A DNA stretch of 64,000 nucleotides from Pseudomonadota bacterium. GTDB lineage: Bacteria > Pseudomonadota > Gammaproteobacteria > Burkholderiales > Rhodocyclaceae. The translations under genes were made by a program, and so were the position numbers. The first letter of the stretch is position 1. Every line of letters starts with the position of its first letter. The notes beneath the pieces were generated by a model. That model ran no database searches, was not told the DNA's origin, and saw only the letters and a list, made by a program, of their open reading frames with translations. The stretch spans positions 124,001 to 188,000 of the forward strand of contig JAFEFC010000003.1 in assembly GCA_018240785.1 (NCBI GenBank). The letters are read 5' to 3'. Of this stretch, positions 22,509-54,397 are shown piece by piece.

Positions 22509-24563
22509 TCAGTGCATGCGACCGAGCTTGCGATAGAGCGTGTTGCGGCTGACACCCAGGCGGCGCGCGGCCGCCGAGATGTTGCCGCCGACCTCGCGCA
22601 TCACCGAGGTGATCGCCTCCAGCTTGATCTCGTCCAGGCTGCGCGGCTCGGCCTTCAGCCGGCCTCCCGCGTGTTCCGGCTCCTCGACGGGTGCCGGCTG
22701 TGCGGCACCTGCGCCACCGCGGGGCCGCGTCGGCGCGTCGTCGAAGGGTTCGCTGCCGAACAGGTCCTCCGGCAGATGGATGGCGCGCAACTCGTGCTCG
22801 TCCTCGTCCATCAGCGCCACCGCCAGGCGCAGCACGTTGTGCAACTGGCGCAGGTTGCCGGGCCAGGCGTAGCGCTCGAAGAAGTTCATCACCTCGTCGC
22901 TGATCGAAACCCCAGAGCGACGCACTTCCGCCAGTTCTGCGCCGAAGATGCTCTCCACCAATGGCCGGATGTCGCTGCGCTCGCGCAGTGGAGGCAGCGT
23001 GACGGTCAGGCCGTTGATGCGGTAGTAGAGGTCTTCGCGGAATTCACTTGCCGCCACCGCTTCGCGCAATGCACGGTGCGTTGCGCAAACCAGCGAGATA
23101 TCCACCGGGATCGACTTCGTCGAGCCGATCGGCGTCACGCAGCGCTCCTGCAACACGCGCAGCAGCCGTGTCTGCATCGCCAGCGGCATGTCACCGATTT
23201 CATCCAGGAACAAGGTGCCGCCGTGCGCCAGTTGCACCTTGCCGACACCGCCTTCGCGACGGGCTCCGGTGAAGGCGCCGCCCACGTAGCCGAAGAGTTC
23301 GGACTCGATCAGGTTCTCGGGAATGGCCGCGCAGTTGACCGCCACGAAGGGACCGTCGGCACGCGGGCCGCTGTTGTGGAATGCGCGCGCGAAGAGTTCC
23401 TTGCCCACGCCGGATTCGCCCTGGATCAGCAGCGGGATGCCCTTTCCCTCGATGCGCATCGCCCGGTCCAGCGCACGCTGCAGCCGTTCGTCGCCCGTCG
23501 AGAGGCTGGCGAGCGAGACCTCGCCGCTGCGCTTGCCACCGCCTGCCGCCTCGCCCCTCGCAGCCGGCTCGGCCACTGGTGCCGGAGCGGTCACGGAGGC
23601 CATCGCCTGCATGCCGGGATTCGACACCATCAACGGACGCAGCGAACGCACCTGGAGATAGAGCTCGCCTCCCTGACGCAGGTCCAGCTTGAGCAGCGCA
23701 TTGGGCGCCATCGATGCGCGGTCGAGGATGGCGCCAAAGCCGATCTTGAACAGGCTCGCGAAGCTCGACACCGTCGCACTGCGGCCCGCCCGCGTCAGCC
23801 ACTCGCGCCCTGCACCATTGGCGCCCAGGACGGTCCCATCCGCACCGAGCGCGATGAGCCCCTCCTGCAGGCTGCCGAGATACTCCGGGCGCGGATGAAA
23901 CGCGATCAGGATGTCGTTCGGATAACGCGCCTCGAACAGACGCTTTTCCAGCAACTGCACCGACAGCCGCACCAGCCCCAGGGTGTGGCGCTGCGGGTTG
24001 CGAAAATCGCCCGAGATATCGAGTACCCCTGCCAATTCGCCGTCGGCGCCGATGATCGGCGCCGCACTGCAGGTCAGGAAGCTGTTGCGGTCGAGGTAGT
24101 GCTCCGAGCCCAGCACCTCCACCGCCAGGCGTTCCTCGATCGCAGTGCCGATGCCATTGGTGCCGCGCAAACCTTCGCTCCAGCATGCTCCGGGCTGCAA
24201 GGCAACCCGGCCGGCGCGATCGACAAAGGACGGATCGCCCAGGCTGTGGATGATCGTGCCGTCCACATCGGCCAGCAGCACCATGCTGCCCGAGGCCCGG
24301 ATCTGGTCGAACACATGCTCCATGACGCCGCCCGCGTGTGCCAGCAGCACGGCGTTCCGCTCCCTGGACTCCGCCAGTTGCAGGCGGCCGACCGGCTCCA
24401 GCGGACGGCTGTCCGTGTGGTCGAGACCGCTGTCGCGACAGCGCTGCCACGAGCGCACGATCGTCGGCGAAATCGCGCTTTCGGGAACGATTCCGTCGTC
24501 GAAAAACTTCTGGCGCGCGATCACGATGGCGTGATCCCGCGAATCCTTAGGCTGGAGCAACAC
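22509..24563 (-). CDS. sigma-54-dependent transcriptional activator, AcoR-like
   Basis: 684 aa from GTG 24563, which follows GGAAGGAGGAGGTGGG. Order: an N-terminal sensory region with a GAF domain (about 70-200), a PAS-like segment, an AAA+ domain with Walker A GESGVGKE near residue 380 and the sigma-54-contacting GAFTGA near 428, and a C-terminal Fis-type HTH (ISAAARRLGVSRNTLYRKLG). AcoR-like activators respond to alcohols, acetoin or their oxidation products. A 25-bp element at 24645-24669 upstream of this gene recurs upstream of xoxF, which has a sigma-54 promoter, so this is the leading candidate xoxF regulator (inference). Confidence 0.9.
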   Translation of the reverse strand: MLLQPKDSRDHAIVIARQKFFDDGIVPESAISPTIVRSWQRCRDSGLDHTDSRPLEPVGRLQLAESRERNAVLLAHAGGVMEHVFDQIRASGSMVLLADVDGTIIHSLGDPSFVDRAGRVALQPGACWSEGLRGTNGIGTAIEERLAVEVLGSEHYLDRNSFLTCSAAPIIGADGELAGVLDISGDFRNPQRHTLGLVRLSVQLLEKRLFEARYPNDILIAFHPRPEYLGSLQEGLIALGADGTVLGANGAGREWLTRAGRSATVSSFASLFKIGFGAILDRASMAPNALLKLDLRQGGELYLQVRSLRPLMVSNPGMQAMASVTAPAPVAEPAARGEAAGGGKRSGEVSLASLSTGDERLQRALDRAMRIEGKGIPLLIQGESGVGKELFARAFHNSGPRADGPFVAVNCAAIPENLIESELFGYVGGAFTGARREGGVGKVQLAHGGTLFLDEIGDMPLAMQTRLLRVLQERCVTPIGSTKSIPVDISLVCATHRALREAVAASEFREDLYYRINGLTVTLPPLRERSDIRPLVESIFGAELAEVRRSGVSISDEVMNFFERYAWPGNLRQLHNVLRLAVALMDEDEHELRAIHLPEDLFGSEPFDDAPTRPRGGAGAAQPAPVEEPEHAGGRLKAEPRSLDEIKLEAITSVMREVGGNISAAARRLGVSRNTLYRKLGRMH

Positions 24564-24604: not shown

Positions 24605-24669
24605 GTGACCTGTCCGAGGTCTTGCTTATCGTGATTGTGATGCGCCAAAAATTAGCACCTGCACCACTT
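24605..24669 (-). promoter_or_regulatory. upstream region of the sigma-54 activator gene with shared element
   Basis: Positions 24645-24669 match 50724-50748 upstream of xoxF at 22 of 25 positions (CCAAAAA-n-TAGCAC-n-TGC-n-CCACTT on the plus strand). A second 12-mer, GTGACCTGTCCG at 24605-24616, recurs exactly at 59183-59194. This looks like autoregulation by the activator or a shared promoter/operator. Confidence 0.55.
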
Positions 24670-24714
24670 CGAAGCAACTCATCCGAGGGAAAACGCCGCC
24701 AATCCTGCCCAAAA

Positions 24715-25440
24715 TCAGCGAGCGCGCGTGCAGACCTGCCGGTGCTGCCCACCCCAGGCGCTCAAGTCGCTCAAATCGTCGACCACCGGCCAGCCGTTCC
24801 GTTCGGCATGGCGTCGCAGACCGTCATCGGGATGGACCGCGACCGGATGGCTGACCGCGGCAAGCAGCGGCAGGTCGCTGCGCGAATCGGAATAAAAGAT
24901 CGTGCGCGAGAAGCCGGCCCAGTCTTCGCCGCGGGACTGCAGCCATGCTGCCACGCGGCGGACCTTGGCCGCACCGTGGCACAGCTCGCCCTCGATCTCG
25001 CCAGTATGACGTTCGTCGGCGCCACGCTGCGCCTCGCTGGCAAGCAGATGCTCGATGCCGAAGGCCTGCGCCAGCGGCGCCGCGATCGCGCGGGTGGTGG
25101 CGGTGACGATGCAGCAAAGGTCGCCCGCCGCGCGGTGACGCTCGACCAGCGCACGCGACGCGGCGGGAACGACGTCGGCGAGCGTCGCGGCAAAGCGCTG
25201 CTGAAATGCAGCAAGCTGCGCGCCCGGCAGGCGTGCCAGGCTGCCCAGCACGAAACGATGCAGCGTCACCGCATCCCCCTCGCCCGCGAGGTAACGCTGG
25301 CACAGCGCCAGATAGGCTTCGTCGAACCCGTCCTCCAGCACACCGCAGCGCATCAGGAAACGCACCCAGTGCATGCCGCTGTCGAAAGGCACGAGGGTGA
25401 AATCGAGATCGAACAGTGCGAGCGCGCGTTCAGAGGTCAC
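24715..25440 (-). CDS. HAD-superfamily hydrolase, subfamily IB
   Basis: 241 aa from GTG 25440, overlapping the pabBC stop region by 11 bp. Motif I FDLDFTLVPFDS (nucleophile and acid/base Asp), motif II CIVTATT and motif III/IV FYSDSRSDLPLL. The family includes phosphoserine phosphatase-like and PGP-synthase-associated phosphatases. Coupling with pabBC leaves open a role in folate or pterin metabolism, but the substrate cannot be read from sequence. Confidence 0.85.
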   Translation of the reverse strand: MTSERALALFDLDFTLVPFDSGMHWVRFLMRCGVLEDGFDEAYLALCQRYLAGEGDAVTLHRFVLGSLARLPGAQLAAFQQRFAATLADVVPAASRALVERHRAAGDLCCIVTATTRAIAAPLAQAFGIEHLLASEAQRGADERHTGEIEGELCHGAAKVRRVAAWLQSRGEDWAGFSRTIFYSDSRSDLPLLAAVSHPVAVHPDDGLRRHAERNGWPVVDDLSDLSAWGGQHRQVCTRAR

Positions 25441-27331
25441 AAACCGCGCTCCCTTCAAGCAACCGCGCCTCGCGCGCACCCCGCAGCGCATTGCAGACCA
25501 CGATGCGCTCGGCACGATGGAGGTCGGTCAATTTCACCGCAGCCTCGCGCGCACGCCATGCAGGATCGTCCAGCAGCACGCCACGCATCACGCCCGGCAG
25601 CACGCCCGCCGCGAGCGGCGGCGTGACCCACTCGCCGTCGAGCAGCAGGAAGACGTTGCTGCGCCCGCCTTCGGTCAGATGCCCCATACGGTTATGGAAC
25701 AGCACATCGAACGCGCCCTGGCGCGTCGCCTCGGCCACTGCCGCGTCGTAGCGGGCGCGCAGCGTGGTCTTGTGGCGCAGCAGGGGATCGCCTTCATCCA
25801 TGGGGTCGGCTGCGACGAGCAGCGACACCGGTCCGTCCGCAAGCGCATCGAGCGGCGCCACGACGATGTCGAAATGGCCGTCCTTGCGCAAAGCGAGGCG
25901 CAGCCGATGCGCCCGGTCACCCGCCAGTGCGCCAACCTGGGCGGCAAGGGCTGCACGAATGTCGCCTTCCGGCAGTGCGAAACCGAGCTCGACCGCACTC
26001 CGCGCGAGGCGGGCCAGATGCCGCTCGAGGTGACGCACGCCGTCGCCGCGCGTGGCGTACATCGTCTCGAACAGGCTGAAGCCGGGGTCGAGCCCGGTGA
26101 GGAAGCGTGCCTTCAGCCGGCACTCCTCGTACTCGTCGTCGGCACGGCTGTCGATCACGATGCCGGCGCCGATGCCCAGCCGCCCCGGGCGCAGGCCCCC
26201 AGGGCCCGCGGCCTCGAGGGTCAGCGTGCGGATCGCCACCGATAGGCAGAAGTCGCCGCATGCCGCATGCACCCGATCGCCGGCCGGCGCATCGATCCAG
26301 CCGATGCTGCCAGTGTAGAGGCCACGCGGTGTGGTCTCCAGGCCGGCGATGAGCTGCATGGTGCGGTGCTTGGGCGCGCCGGTGATCGAGCCGCAGGGAA
26401 ACAGCGCGCGCAGCAGATCGGCAAAGCCGACCTCGTCCGGCAGCTCGGCCTCGATCATCGACGTCATCTGGAACACCGTCGGGTAGGCCTCGACCGAGAA
26501 CAAGGCTGGCACGCGGACGCTGCCGGTGCGCGCGATGCGGCCCAGATCGTTGCGCAGCAGGTCAACGATCATCAGGTTCTCGGCGCGATTCTTGGTGTCG
26601 CCGCCGAGTATGCGCGCGATCTCGCTGTCGCCTTCGGGCACGCTGGCGCGCGACGCCGTGCCCTTCATCGGCCTCGCTTCGAGCCGGCCGCCGCGGTTGC
26701 GCAGGAAAAGCTCCGGCGAGCACGACAGCACATGCGTCGGACCGCCGCCCCCCGACGGCGGCAGCGCGATGAAGGCACCGAAAGCCACCGGCTGGCGCGC
26801 ACGCAGCCGCCGGTACAGGCTGATCGGCGAGCCGAAGCTGCGCAGATCGAGGCGGTAGGTGTAATTGACCTGGTAGGTTTCGCCTTCGCGGATCGCCGCG
26901 TGGATGCGATCGATGGCATGGCGAAATGCATCGCGATCCACGCTGGGCTGCAGGTCCAGCACGCCAGCCGGCGCGGGCGTCGCAGCCGCCGCGTCCAGGT
27001 TGAGCGCGGCACGCTCACGTTGCGCCAGCCAGACATCGACCTGCGCTGTGGACAAGTGTTGCAGCGACTCGAAGAGCAGCACGCGAAGTGCTCCGCCGTC
27101 CTCCGGCGCCAGGGCCTCGTCGCCCGCATGCTGCAGGCGCGCGCCCCACTCGTAATCGGCCAGGACCACCGCATGACGGCCAGCGCGAAGCTCGCGTTCC
27201 ACCTCGGCCCACGCTTCGTCGAGGCGCGCCGGGTCGTCGCAGCGGCATTCGCGCACGAAACCCGTGTAGAGACGGCTCGTCGGCGCCGCCTCGGTGGCGG
27301 CGCAGTCGTCGAGCAGGGCGAAGCACTCCAT
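25430..27331 (-). CDS. pabB: aminodeoxychorismate synthase component I fused to class-IV aminotransferase/lyase (PabBC)
   Basis: 633 aa. The N-terminal two thirds is the chorismate-binding domain (GETYQVNYTYRL, KGTASR, RNDLGRIARTGSV, PCGSITGAPKHRTMQLI); the C-terminal 200 residues form a PLP class-IV domain like 4-amino-4-deoxychorismate lyase (FETMYATRGDGVRHLERHL, EGGRSNVFLLLDG). The fusion makes p-aminobenzoate from chorismate. p-Aminobenzoate is used for folate and, via beta-RFAP synthase, for H4MPT, which fits the adjacent C1 island. It ends 19 bp from the Fae-like gene on the same strand. Confidence 0.94.
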   Translation of the reverse strand: MECFALLDDCAATEAAPTSRLYTGFVRECRCDDPARLDEAWAEVERELRAGRHAVVLADYEWGARLQHAGDEALAPEDGGALRVLLFESLQHLSTAQVDVWLAQRERAALNLDAAAATPAPAGVLDLQPSVDRDAFRHAIDRIHAAIREGETYQVNYTYRLDLRSFGSPISLYRRLRARQPVAFGAFIALPPSGGGGPTHVLSCSPELFLRNRGGRLEARPMKGTASRASVPEGDSEIARILGGDTKNRAENLMIVDLLRNDLGRIARTGSVRVPALFSVEAYPTVFQMTSMIEAELPDEVGFADLLRALFPCGSITGAPKHRTMQLIAGLETTPRGLYTGSIGWIDAPAGDRVHAACGDFCLSVAIRTLTLEAAGPGGLRPGRLGIGAGIVIDSRADDEYEECRLKARFLTGLDPGFSLFETMYATRGDGVRHLERHLARLARSAVELGFALPEGDIRAALAAQVGALAGDRAHRLRLALRKDGHFDIVVAPLDALADGPVSLLVAADPMDEGDPLLRHKTTLRARYDAAVAEATRQGAFDVLFHNRMGHLTEGGRSNVFLLLDGEWVTPPLAAGVLPGVMRGVLLDDPAWRAREAAVKLTDLHRAERIVVCNALRGAREARLLEGSAVCDL

Positions 27332-49533: not shown

Positions 49534-50715
49534 TCAGCTTGCGGAGGCAGCGTGCGCCACTGCGTCCATTACCGCGCGTCGGCGCTCGGCCAGCAGGCGC
49601 TCGACCTCCGCCGTACTCTCCGCGGACGCGCTCACGCTGCACACCGGGTCGCCCCATGCATGGGCCGTACCCGCCGCAGGCAGGTCGTGACACCAGCCCT
49701 GCGCTGCCAGCCAGTCCGCCGTTTCATCGTCGATGCGGCCGGCGCGCGGCGCGAACACCACCTCGCTGCCACGCACCCCGCGCAAAGGCAGAAACCTCAG
49801 CGCGTCGAGGGCCGCGCCACGGCACACCGCCGCATGCGCCAGCAGCAACCCACCGGCGACGCAATCGTCGAACAGCGCGACGCTGGCAGTCGGACGGGGG
49901 TTGAGCTCGATCAGCAGCGGCCCATCCTCGTGCAGGATGAAGTCGATGCCATTGAGCCCGACGAGGCCGAGCCCGCCCACGATGCTGTCCACCATCGCCC
50001 GCAGCGCGTCCAGCGCGGCGGCCGGCAGATCGATCGGGCCGACGCCGCCGCGATGGACGTATTGATGTCCGCCAAGTGGGCGAATCTTCTGGCGCGCGAT
50101 GCCCGCAATGTGCCAGCGATGCCCGTCGGCGAGAAAGAGCACCGACATCGGCACTCCTTCGATGCGTCGCTGAAAGTAATGCCCCGCGCCGCCGCCAGGC
50201 ACTGCCGTCAGCGCGGGTCGCACATGCCAGCCCCCGCAGGCACGCGCGTCCTTTGACAGCCAGCCTTCGAGCTGCACCGGAGGCACGACACTGACCGCCG
50301 CGTGCGGCACCCGGCGCGCCGCCAGCCAGGGGTAGAACCAGCCGGGCGTGCGGACCCGCCGCACCAGCTCCGGCGGATTGCCCAGCAGCGGCAGCAGCGC
50401 GGCGCCGCGCGCAAGCAGGTCCGGCCGCGCCTCGAAGCCGCTGCCTGCGACCCAGGCGCCGACCTCGCCCTCGTCCGCGAGCCGGGCCAGCGCGTCGAGC
50501 AGGGCCGCGCCATCCAGCGCGAGCTGGGCTCCGCTGCCGATGTCGTGCCAAGCCGCGGCCGCGGCGCGCGTGTCGACATCGCCGAACAGATCCAGCGCCA
50601 CCGCCTTTGCGCCACCAGCGGTGACCGACTCGGCCAGCATGCGTGCCGACAGGGCAGCGACAGCGATCGCTCGCCGTCCGGGTGGGCGAATCTCAAGGGA
50701 TACCAAAGCCGACAC
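49534..50715 (-). CDS. ATP-grasp protein of the C1 cluster
   Basis: 393 aa, taken from GTG 50715; TTG 50706 or 50727 are alternatives. An N-terminal [18 protein letters not shown]...[12 protein letters not shown] region and a C-terminal ATP-grasp core ([45 protein letters not shown], the last with the metal-binding Glu/Asn). Homologues occur in methylotroph H4MPT clusters without an assigned step. First gene of the leftward operon to 43995 and divergent from xoxF; the shared element at 50724-50748 starts 9 bp upstream of its start. Confidence 0.82.
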
Positions 50716-50723
50716 CTCATGTC

Positions 50724-50748
50724 CCAAAAAGTAGCACTTGCCCCACTT
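50724..50748. promoter_or_regulatory. shared 25-bp element in the xoxF/H4MPT divergent region
   Basis: CCAAAAA-G-TAGCAC-T-TGC-C-CCACTT. It differs at 3 of 25 positions from 24645-24669 upstream of the sigma-54 activator gene. It lies about 110 bp upstream of the xoxF -24/-12 promoter, the usual place of an enhancer site. A related CACTTTGCAGCAGG (50744-50757) recurs with one added T at 50827-50841. Confidence 0.55.
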
Positions 50749-50859
50749 TGCAGCAGGGCGCCGAACAGTTCAGCCCTGCACGCGGCGCCCATGCCGCGGC
50801 CGGGCAATTTTCCCGGGCTTGTCAGTCACTTTTGCAGCAGGCCAGCCGGCGGCACATTC

Positions 50860-50874
50860 TGGCACAAGGTTTGC
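50860..50874 (+). promoter_or_regulatory. sigma-54 (-24/-12) promoter of xoxF
   Basis: TGGCAC (50860-50865), N5, TTGC (50871-50874), followed by A: a full match to the RpoN consensus TGGCAC-N5-TTGCW. It lies 111 bp before the xoxF start codon. Activation would need an AAA+ activator such as the AcoR-like protein encoded at 22509-24563. Confidence 0.75.
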
Positions 50875-50985
50875 ATCGACGTTTCCGCTGTCGTTAGGAA
50901 CCCGCGCTCCGCATGCCGCGGCGGGGCCTCCGGTCTTTTCATGTGGCGAAGTCGCACGTTGTTCACAAAGAGAGAGGAGACAAAA

Positions 50986-52809
50986 ATGAAACGTTCCGGA
51001 ACACCCGCTCGATTCGCACCGACCGTCCTCGCCACCGCCCTGGCGTTTGCGCTGCCTGGTGTCGCGCAGGCCAACGCCGACCTCGAGTCGAAGATCGCCA
51101 ACCCGAAGAACTGGGCGATGCAGGCCGGCGACATGTTCAACCAGCGTTACAGCAAGCTGAAGCAGATCAACGTCGGCAACGTCGGCAAGTTGCAGGTCGC
51201 GTGGACCTTCTCCACCGGCGTGCTGCGCGGCCATGAGGGCTCGCCCCTGGTCATCGACGGCATGATGTATCTGCACACGCCGTTCCCCAACAAGGTATTC
51301 GCGCTCGACCTCGACACGCAGAAGATCGTCTGGCGCTATGAGCCCAAGCAGGATCCGTCGGTCATCGCGCAGATGTGCTGCGACACGGTGAATCGCGGCC
51401 TAGCCTACGCGGAGGGCAAGATCTTCCTGCAACAGGCGGATTCGACCCTGGTTGCGCTGGATGCGAAGACTGGCAAGGTGTTGTGGAGCGCGGTCAACGG
51501 CGATCCGAAGCTGGGCGCGGTCAACACCAACGCCCCGCACGTCTTCGGCGACAAAGTGCTGACCGGCATCTCGGGTGGCGAGTGGGGCGTGCGCGGCTTC
51601 GTCGCAGCGTACGACATGAACACCGGCAAGCAGGTGTGGAAGGCCTACAGCACCGGCCCCGACAACGAGATGCTGATGGATCCGGACAAGACGATGACCT
51701 GGACCGACGGCAAGATGGCGCCGGTCGGCAAGGATTCGTCGCTCAAGACCTGGAAGGGCGACCAGTGGAAGACCGGCGGCGGCACGACCTGGGGCTGGTA
51801 CAGCTACGACAAGGCGACCAACACCGTCTATTACGGCACCGGCAACCCCTCGACCTGGAACCCGTCGCAGCGTCCGGGCGACAACAAGTGGTCGATGACG
51901 ATCATGGCGCGTGACATGAGCACCGGCATGGCCAAGTGGGTCTACCAGATGACGCCGCACGACGAGTGGGACTTCGACGGCATCAACGAGATGATCCTTG
52001 CCGACATCGACGTCAAGGGCAAGCCGACCAAGGCGCTGGTCCACTTCGACCGCAACGGCTTCGGCTACACGCTGGACCGCACCACGGGCGAACTGCTGGT
52101 GGCCGAAAAGTACGACCCGCAGGTCAACTGGGCGACCCACGTCGACATGAAGACCGGCCGGCCGCAGGTGGTCACCAAGTACTCCACTCAAGCGGGCGGA
52201 CCGGACGTCAACGTGAAAGGGATCTGCCCGGCGGCGCTCGGCTCGAAGGACCAGCAGCCGGCCTCGTTCGACCCGAACACCAAGCTCTTCTACGTGCCTA
52301 CCAACCACGTCTGCATGGACTACGAGCCGTTCCAGGTCGATTACGTCGCCGGCCAGCCCTACGTCGGGGCCACGCTGTCGATGTTCCCGGCACCCAACAG
52401 TCATGGCGGCATGGGCAACTTCATCACCTGGGATGCGGGCAAGGGCAAGATCGTGCAGTCCAAGCCGGAGAAGTTCTCGGTGTGGAGCGGCTCGCTCAAC
52501 ACAGCGGGCGGACTCTCGTGCTTCGGCACGCTCGAGGGCTACCTGAAGTGCGTCGATGCCAAAGACATCAAGAAGGAGCTCTACAAGTTCAAGACGCCGT
52601 CCGGCATCATCGGCAACGTCTTCACGTATGAGCACAAGGGCAAGCAGTATCTGGGCGTGTTCTCGGGCATCGGCGGCTGGGCCGGCATCGGCATGGCGGC
52701 GGGCCTGGAGAAGGCGAACGAGGGTCTGGGTGCGGTCGGCGGTTATCGCGAGCTGGCCGATTACACGCAGCTCGGCGGCTCGCTCACCGTGTTCGCGCTG
52801 CCCAATTGA
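50986..52809 (+). CDS. xoxF: lanthanide-type PQQ methanol dehydrogenase
   Basis: 607 aa from ATG 50986 with AGAGAGGAG upstream. Signal peptide ([12 protein letters not shown]), eight-bladed PQQ propeller with the adjacent disulfide Cys131-Cys132 (QMCCDT). Metal and catalytic residues: Glu199 (GGEWG), Asn287 (GTGNPSTW), catalytic Asp329 and the extra Asp331 in EWDFDG. That second Asp is the XoxF hallmark for lanthanide binding; calcium MxaF enzymes have Ala there. It oxidises methanol (perhaps other alcohols) in the periplasm and passes electrons to the cytochrome encoded next. No mxaI-like small subunit follows. Confidence 0.95.
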
Positions 52810-52928: not shown

Positions 52929-53076
52929 ACTCGAAGCCAGTGTGGAAAGCACCCGCTCCCCGGCGCCGATCGCTCTCAAGGTCACAGCGTCGCGAGCCTC
53001 CTGATTCATCATTCAACGAAAGGTGTCAGGCCAAAGCAGCCACGACACATCCGCCGCAAGCGAGGAGGATTCACCC

Positions 53077-53469
53077 ATGAAGTACGCGATGTTGTTGTGT
53101 GCAGCCCTGATGGTCGTCGGTAGCCCAAGCCATGCTGCAGATGCACAGAAGCCGCTGTACACGGTGGTCGACGGCAACAAGGTCGATCCGAACACGCTGA
53201 AGGGATTCCACACCTGGCGCGCTGCGGCCTGCGATCGCTGCCACGGCGCGAATCAGGAGGGCATGGTCGGGCCTTCATTGATCGAGAGCCTGAAGGTGCT
53301 GACGAAGGAACAGTTCATCCAGACGGTGCGCGACGGCAGGCAGGAAAAAGGCATGGTCAGCTTCGGCAACAACCCCAGGGTGATGGACAACATCGATGCC
53401 CTGTATGCGTATCTGAAGGGCCGTTCCGACGGCGCCATCACCCAGGCCAAGGTTCAGCCGATCGAGTGA
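53077..53469 (+). CDS. xoxG: periplasmic cytochrome c of the xoxF cluster
   Basis: 130 aa from ATG 53077 with CGAGGAGGAT upstream. Signal peptide (MKYAMLLCAALMVVGSPSHA), one heme c site AACDRCHG (Cys52, Cys55, His56) and likely Met ligand in EKGMVSFGN. Small for a XoxG/cL cytochrome but in the expected position between xoxF and xoxJ; the direct electron acceptor of XoxF. Assignment to XoxG rests on position. Confidence 0.85.
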   Translation: MKYAMLLCAALMVVGSPSHAADAQKPLYTVVDGNKVDPNTLKGFHTWRAAACDRCHGANQEGMVGPSLIESLKVLTKEQFIQTVRDGRQEKGMVSFGNNPRVMDNIDALYAYLKGRSDGAITQAKVQPIE

Positions 53470-53485
53470 GGTCGAGGAAGACACG

Positions 53486-54397
53486 ATGACCGCGACCAAG
53501 GAACAGGCCCGCCCGAACGCCACGCGCAAGTGCGGCCGTGGCATCACCCTCATTGTCGGGCTCGCCGCCCTGCTGACGGCAGGCGCATCACTGGCACAGG
53601 ACAATGGCGGCGCACCGGAGCGCAAGGCGCTGCGCGTGTGCCAGGATCCCAACAACCTGCCGTTCGCCAACGACAAGCAACAGGGGTTCGAGAACCGCAT
53701 CGCCGAACTGTTCGGCAAGTCGCTCAAGCTGCCGGTCACCTACTACAACTACCCGCAGCGTTTCGTCTTCATCCGCAACACCCTGCGCTACAAGTTGCCC
53801 GGCCAGGACTATCCTTGCGACATCATCATGGGGCTGCCGGTGGGCTTCGATCAGGCCTCGGTGACGAAACCCTATTTCCGCTCGCCCTACGTGCTCGTCT
53901 TTCCGGCTGGCAAGGGAATGGACGACGTGCGCACGAGCGACGATTTCCTCGCGCTGCCGCGGGAGAAGCTCGCCAGCCTTAAGATTGGCGTTTTCGACCA
54001 CTCGCCGGCGTCGAAATGGATGGCGAGGCACGACCTGGTTGACCAGGGCGTCCCGTATCACACGATCAACGTTGAAATGGATTACTACCCGGGCCGGATC
54101 ATCGATCAGGATCTTGCCTCCGGCAAGATCGACGTTGCCATCGTCTGGGGACCGGTCGGCAGCTACTACGGCCTGACGGCTGCGAGGCAAGCGATGCACG
54201 TCGTGCCGATCCGCCCCGAACCGGGGATTCCCCTGGAGTTCTCCGTCGGCATGGGCGTGCGCTATGGCGAGCCCGAGTGGAAGAAGCAGGTGGAGGAATT
54301 CATCGACACGCATCGCGCCGAGATCCAGTCCATCCTCGCCGAATACCGCGTGCCGCTGACTGAAGAGCCGCCTGCATCAGCGGCGGTCTCCAGATGA
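53486..54397 (+). CDS. xoxJ: XoxJ-like periplasmic substrate-binding-fold protein
   Basis: 303 aa. Signal peptide (GITLIVGLAALLTAGASLAQ), then a PBP2-like domain: KALRVCQDPNNLPFANDKQQGFENRIAELFGKSL, DIIMGLPVGFDQASVTKPYFRSPYVLVF and KIDVAIVWGPVGSYYGL. This is the quinoprotein-dehydrogenase-associated family that includes MxaJ/XoxJ, thought to help assemble or activate the dehydrogenase. 16 bp after the cytochrome gene; its stop overlaps a possible start of the next gene. Confidence 0.9.
   Translation: MTATKEQARPNATRKCGRGITLIVGLAALLTAGASLAQDNGGAPERKALRVCQDPNNLPFANDKQQGFENRIAELFGKSLKLPVTYYNYPQRFVFIRNTLRYKLPGQDYPCDIIMGLPVGFDQASVTKPYFRSPYVLVFPAGKGMDDVRTSDDFLALPREKLASLKIGVFDHSPASKWMARHDLVDQGVPYHTINVEMDYYPGRIIDQDLASGKIDVAIVWGPVGSYYGLTAARQAMHVVPIRPEPGIPLEFSVGMGVRYGEPEWKKQVEEFIDTHRAEIQSILAEYRVPLTEEPPASAAVSR

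Follow-up and report, generated by a model that had tools for sequence, protein, structure and literature searches.

Several regulators of lanthanide-type alcohol dehydrogenase genes are known. PMC6115532 describes MxcQE, MxbDM and MxaB of Methylobacterium, MxaY of Methylomicrobium and PedS2/PedR2 of Pseudomonas (pedE/pedH) as controlling xoxF or pedH, and work cited there places exaA of Azospirillum brasilense, which encodes a quinoprotein alcohol dehydrogenase, under sigma-54 together with a LuxR-type regulator. Another sigma-54-dependent regulator, BmoR of Thauera butanivorans, is described as alcohol-responsive, with an inverted repeat upstream of the -24/-12 Pbmo promoter (PMC8899819, PMC8784404), and its own promoter is termed constitutive (PMC8899819).

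In the 64-kb window studied here (the whole stretch of DNA that was analysed), an earlier note had drawn attention to a short element found both upstream of xoxF and upstream of a gene for a sigma-54-dependent activator. It proposed that this activator controls xoxF and its own gene, and perhaps also the H4MPT operon that diverges from xoxF. The comparisons described below support the former part of that proposal but not the latter. Based on these comparisons, we consider it very probable that the element is the operator of this sigma-54 enhancer-binding protein (bEBP; Act1 in Table 1), which would bind the element as a dyad, activate xoxF via sigma-54 and regulate its own gene.

The two copies of the element and the genes beside them

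The 25-mers at 50724-50748 (ccaaaaagtagcacttgccccactt) and 24645-24669 (ccaaaaattagcacctgcaccactt) are indeed identical at 22 of 25 positions, with three mismatches. When they are merged into one degenerate pattern and up to three mismatches are allowed, these two are the only matches within the window, and also within the whole genome to which the window belongs (4,712,237 bases, here G000). At the same tolerance, the pattern has no match in 100 dinucleotide shuffles of the window, and a reversed control pattern has none across the 4,712,237 bases. A 39-nt profile trained on both copies and related sites also recovers just the two known sites in this genome at E≤0.5, and no further operators. 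Thus, the whole-genome scan suggested in the earlier note, carried out by pattern and by profile, returns two copies only, one at the activator gene and one at xoxF.

The 25-mer core is real, but 25 bp is not the whole of the element. In both copies the conserved block exceeds the 25-mers and spans 39 nt (Table 1), and its most conserved columns pair as an imperfect dyad of 36 bp, TG-N4-AA-N6-GCA-N2-TGC-N6-TT-N4-CA. Both copies are essentially intergenic, as had been stated, but the open reading frame of the ATP-grasp gene can be read as far as the TTG at 50727 and then touches the xoxF copy. The block at xoxF ends about 103 nt before the GG of the -24/-12 box TGGCACAAGGTTTGCA; the earlier note had put this distance at about 110 bp and called it an enhancer position. 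The other copy lies, as claimed, 5' of the RpoN activator gene, its block being 76-115 nt upstream of the start codon, a GTG that was inferred from a ribosome-binding-site-like run and from orthologues.

Table 1. Features of the window that bear on the predicted circuit
Feature	Coordinates	Strand	Remarks
Predicted operator block at xoxF, 39 nt	50719..50757	+	dyad core 50720-50755; contains 25-mer 50724-50748
Predicted operator block at activator gene, 39 nt	24640..24678	+	dyad core 24641-24676; opposite orientation to gene
xoxF -24/-12 sigma-54 box TGGCACAAGGTTTGCA	50860..50875	+	11/12 consensus letters
Activator gene, Act1	22509..24563	-	GAF sensor, AAA+ sigma-54 domain with GAFTGA loop, Fis-type HTH
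xoxF, lanthanide-type methanol dehydrogenase	50986..52809	+	TIGR03075 above cutoff
c-type cytochrome gene 3' of xoxF	53023..53469	+	xoxG-like by position; TIGR03874 58.9 bits, below cutoff 161.75
MoxJ-like periplasmic protein (xoxJ-like)	53486..54397	+	TIGR03871 above cutoff
ATP-grasp gene, divergent from xoxF	49534..50727	-	start uncertain: TTG at 50727 or later
HAD-family phosphatase gene	24715..25515	-	just upstream of activator, same strand

The activator has the domains expected of a bEBP, namely an AAA+ sigma-54 interaction domain (PF00158, 6e-65) in which the GAFTGA loop is present and a C-terminal Fis-type HTH (PF02954, 9.6e-12). Its N-terminal GAF sensor (PF01590, 6.2e-10) is of the kind found in AcoR-like or BmoR-like ligand-sensing regulators. 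Neither a receiver domain nor a sensor kinase is among its Pfam matches at E≤0.001, which sets it apart from two-component xoxF regulators of the MxbM, MxaB and PedR2 kind. Among the best 25 of the 29 NCBIfam models that it matches, none reaches its curated cutoff (the top one, PrdR, gives 302 vs 795 bits), so that these models do not indicate orthology to a named bEBP; BmoR and AcoR were compared by description only. We take the activator to be AcoR-like, although no AcoR model matched.

Judging by its nearest solved relatives, the target enzyme is XoxF rather than MxaF: XoxF 6dam and 6oc5 score 926 and 923 bits, and the next relative 651 bits. A SoxYZ-like gene is also found downstream of xoxF. 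On the other side, the ATP-grasp gene heads a same-strand cluster of the H4MPT type with mch (TIGR03120, above cutoff) and an MptN-like ligase. The HAD-family phosphatase is not thought to be part of the circuit.

Conservation within the genus

A pattern search of 61 genomes (our own and 60 relatives) found matches at 23 places in 14 genomes, all of the same genus, and by tblastn all 23 lie either 5' of an activator orthologue or in the region that separates xoxF from the ATP-grasp gene. Of the 29 genomes of the genus, 16 have xoxF, and these 16 are also the ones with the ATP-grasp protein; contig ends truncate xoxF in G011 and G027, and the ATP-grasp gene beside xoxF in G001 (G001:C1:3058933-3060068) gives a two-piece match with an in-frame TGA in one piece. 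A 39-nt matrix was built from 18 distinct sites and used to score 700 nt upstream of both genes in the 16 genomes. One clear site was found in 16/16 xoxF and 16/16 activator upstream regions. The xoxF sites all lie on the coding strand, 232-410 nt away from the start codon, and the activator sites all lie on the opposite strand, where the far end of the site is 99-122 nt upstream of the aligned start. Site scores in the 32 regions range from 22.6 to 67.8, and no second-best score exceeds 0.7. Nine of these promoters, comprising seven distinct site sequences, had been held out of the matrix (xoxF of G002, G003, G005, G009, G015, G017 and G023; activator of G002 and G017), and all nine were detected. 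The weak xoxF sites are those of G002, G017 and G023 (22.6, 22.6 and 27.1), compared with at least 41.8 at the other 13.

The element has a mean pairwise identity of 78% at xoxF and 83% at the activator gene, whereas that of the 60-nt flanks is 29-33% and 33-37%, respectively (12 of the 16 rows per gene, near-duplicates having been removed). The flanks have diverged to near background and the element has not. The earlier note had named absence of the element from relatives as the observation that would speak against its reading; the element is retained at both promoters in all 16 of the xoxF-bearing genomes among the 29. It should also be noted that the activator of G016 is represented by a C-terminal fragment at the end of a contig, which groups with the clade in a quick tree, and that this genome gives no match to xoxF or to the ATP-grasp protein. 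With this fragment the activator clade is present in 17/29 genomes vs 16/29 for xoxF, an exception that incomplete assembly or contamination could explain.

The dyad shape is borne out by the aligned sites, since complementarity is seen at 7 of 19 column pairs, each in 86-100% of 22 sites. When the columns were permuted, with the best of five centres chosen each time, only 11 of 5000 permutations reached the observed symmetry. Out of the 14 fixed letters, the mean number matched is 13.7 at the 16 xoxF sites, 13.8 at the 16 activator sites and 12.6 at 36 sites from the family.

A -24/-12 box with 11 or 12 of the 12 consensus letters is present in 16/16 xoxF upstream regions of the genus, 41-218 nt downstream of the element (box scores are letters matched of 12). 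A looping enhancer tolerates variable spacing between operator and promoter. We also considered a sigma-54 box overlapping the element itself and rejected it, as the spacing, with the letters read by eye, is unfit. For the activator gene, no sigma-54 box of at least 10 letters was found in the 16 activator promoters of the genus. Many of these promoters have a -10-like ATAA run just beyond the operator, with no convincing -35 seen; hence, binding could affect the activator's own transcription, although repression is not claimed.

The element and xoxF across the family

Among 395 genomes of the family, 37 have an XoxF match, and 26 of these are outside the genus. One xoxF locus each was examined in 19 of the 26, and the operator was found at 0/19 (best score 1.3). 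A sigma-54 box of 11 or 12 letters is present at eight of the 19, and G061 has one of 10 letters. Four genomes (G251, G260, G279 and G390) have xoxF as well as a pedF-type activator homologue with the operator, and in 0/4 is the operator at xoxF; G294 also has the site and xoxF, its xoxF being outside the 19 examined. The XoxF proteins of G061 and G087 are 85% and 88% identical to that of the window (the xoxF upstream region of G087 is cut by a contig end). G061 has both the clade activator and xoxF, but its operator faces formate dehydrogenase and none is found at xoxF. Given that none of the 19 out-of-genus loci, G061 included, carries the operator at xoxF, the link to xoxF is confined to this genus, as far as examined.

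Some xoxF promoters of other genera show features of their own. At eight loci (L255, L256, L259, L263, L266, L267, L269 and L270), which have sigma-54 boxes, tandem repeats like ACTGTGTCAC ... TGTGTAAC replace the operator, about 160-190 nt upstream of the box as judged by eye. Apparently, a different regulator acts there on the same promoter type. A candidate for this other regulator is the product of a gene about 1.5 kb from xoxF in G111 (L277, ~1585-2292), which contains an AAA+ sigma-54 activator domain (56% identity across the domain); L277 is the sole locus with such a gene among six tested. The xoxF upstream region of G061 (L252) has two tandem repeats TGTCACAAAAAGTGACACGTGACCAAAAAGTGACATGT 5' of its sigma-54 box.

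The operator itself also occurs in other genera of the family. The R1 sequence profile, made from 23 sites of which one is from a paralogue promoter, finds it at E≤0.01 in at least 68 of the 395 genomes, which represent 19 of the 68 genera; the filters applied miss some weak matches. Out-of-genus R1 matches fall at 59 places, and the 40 loci examined cover 42 of them. At 36/40 loci, the best site is in the same orientation and lies just 5' of an activator homologue with 48-67% identity; at L230 it is the second-best site that adjoins the homologue, giving 37/40 in all, while L232, L239 and L240 have weak best sites with no activator homologue adjoining. At every one of the 37 loci but L215, a sigma-54 box of at least 10 letters lies about 100-190 nt on the far side of the operator and reads away from the activator. 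The gene opposite the activator encodes a PedF-type cytochrome c550, with a PedG-like binding protein, at 34/37 loci and formate dehydrogenase at two (L210 and L219); neither was seen opposite the activator at L215.

Unlike the window's clade, many of the other-genus loci and group-2 paralogues also have a sigma-54 box about 30 nt before the operator. This TGGCA-N6-TTGC-like box is seen at many of L201-L238 and L055-L070, at a nearly fixed distance, and reads toward the activator; it is not found at 10 or more letters in the window's activator clade. Second, more symmetric sites of the form CTGYTCC...GGAGCAG occur about 1.5-3 kb from the first operator at L207, L212, L213, L214, L222, L230, L233, L236, L075 and others, near the far end of pedF operons and in some cases beside another activator paralogue.

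In a quick tree, the clade of the window's activator unites the activators of this kind from the genus with their counterparts in G087 and G061 (SH-aLRT 84-85, moderate). The activator gene is divergent from a formate dehydrogenase operon (NuoF-like and alpha subunits) in 8/16 genomes of the genus, as it is in G061 and G087, and in those eight a sigma-54 box follows beyond the operator at a distance of 65-84 nt. In three others (G002, G017 and G023) the box is present and the nearest tested neighbour of the activator is the HAD gene, and in the window's subclade (5/16) neither the box nor formate dehydrogenase is found beside the activator.

Rival readings, predicted mechanism and relation to known systems

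What the raw sequence alone offers is two copies in one genome, which could be a chance similarity, a dispersed repeat or the end of a mobile element. This reading was rejected, and we regard its probability as negligible: the shuffles gave 0 matches in 100, the genome holds just the two copies, orientation and neighbours are constant in 16/16 genomes, and conservation is far above that of the flanks. It is also very unlikely that the main role of the site is at the divergent ATP-grasp/H4MPT operon, with any effect on xoxF incidental. The block does lie close to the ATP-grasp gene, only some 20 nt from the reading frame drawn for it in the window, and its TGT end faces that gene. Nevertheless, its GCA end faces the xoxF sigma-54 box in 16/16 genomes, just as at 36/37 family loci it points to the sigma-54 box of the divergent gene, whereas no box faces the ATP-grasp gene in 15/16 genomes and the 16th has a single weak match of 10 letters. 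On the same count, sigma-54 control of the H4MPT operon, which the earlier note had put forward with a hedge, is unsupported and was rejected. Since the ATP-grasp promoter must lie near or under the operator in the window, some effect on it may still be exerted.

A common site speaks for co-regulation and is silent on which protein binds. Since several related activators are encoded in every genome of the genus (3-13 matches at E≤1e-60), a further paralogue might bind as well; a paralogous bEBP or a global factor might then occupy both sites, with the activator gene as merely a second target. We hold this to be unlikely, as operators of this type stand beside homologues of this very activator at 37/40 family loci, and most group-2 paralogues in the genus carry an operator variant of their own at the same position (among the group-3 loci L068 and L071-L074, the operator was recognised in 0/5). 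Furthermore, where the recognition helix reads SRNRLYRKL instead of SRNTLYRKL, nine of ten in-register operators have CG in place of TG at positions 2-3. The SRNRLYRKL/CG cases all fall in one clade and thus amount to one event, and the SRNT-type loci L213 and L215 also deviate from TG at these positions; as a sign of the binder's identity, this covariation between helix and operator letters is only suggestive.

Taken together, the conservation, position and orientation of the element, the promoter box, the domains of the activator, the co-occurrence of the two and the family pattern are all observed here. The site is at both promoters in 16/16 genomes, sigma-54 boxes are at 16/16 xoxF genes and operators stand beside homologues of the activator in the family, which supports control of xoxF by Act1 as first proposed. 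This co-occurrence, along with the pairing of the operator with the activator gene across the family, makes Act1 the predicted binder. We infer binding, activation and autoregulation along the following lines. Act1 would dock on the 36-bp dyad, which lies roughly 100 nt 5' of the -24/-12 box of xoxF. Once a signal reached the GAF domain, Act1 would contact sigma-54 RNA polymerase by DNA looping, upon which the xoxF promoter would open. The second copy, in front of the activator's own gene at 76-115 nt before the start codon, implies that Act1 may also regulate itself, with either sign. More speculatively, methanol or one of its C1 products (formaldehyde, formate) could be the inducer, as the clade has links to xoxF and formate dehydrogenase, and the relatives of the clade have links to alcohol oxidation.

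As to how this arrangement arose, we favour, with some reserve, the view that an ancestral bEBP clade of the pedF type, devoted to alcohol oxidation, was re-targeted to C1 metabolism, first at a divergent formate dehydrogenase operon and then, in one genus, at xoxF by means of a second operator copy. One ligand-sensing protein would thereby serve both ends of methanol oxidation through sigma-54, independently of the two-component lanthanide switches. If true, this would provide the family with a single-gene regulator of lanthanide-type methanol oxidation that is directly testable, an operator that is defined and has natural variants, and a clear example of how regulation was rewired between the oxidation of alcohols and that of one-carbon compounds.

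Among the matches listed in the openly licensed literature (titles and the starts of abstracts, subscription papers being mostly absent), no report of a sigma-54 activator of xoxF is apparent. The circuit is of an ordinary kind, made up of a bEBP, a dyad and a sigma-54 promoter; its assignment to xoxF is well supported and apparently undescribed. MxcQE, MxbDM, MxaB, MxaY and PedS2/PedR2 are two-component regulators, whereas the window's activator shows no receiver domain among its Pfam matches and is tied to a sigma-54 box. The exaA system of Azospirillum brasilense differs in its LuxR-type regulator and in having a target other than xoxF. With bEBPs of the AcoR, DhaR and PrpR type, the activator has the AAA+ sigma-54 domain in common, which in its case is combined with a GAF sensor and a Fis-type HTH. 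Thauera butanivorans presumably belongs to the same bacterial family as the window's genome, and its BmoR, compared by description only, is likewise a bEBP with an inverted repeat upstream of a -24/-12 promoter, as in the circuit predicted for xoxF. The difference lies in the target: BmoR controls butane monooxygenase, while Act1 would control xoxF.
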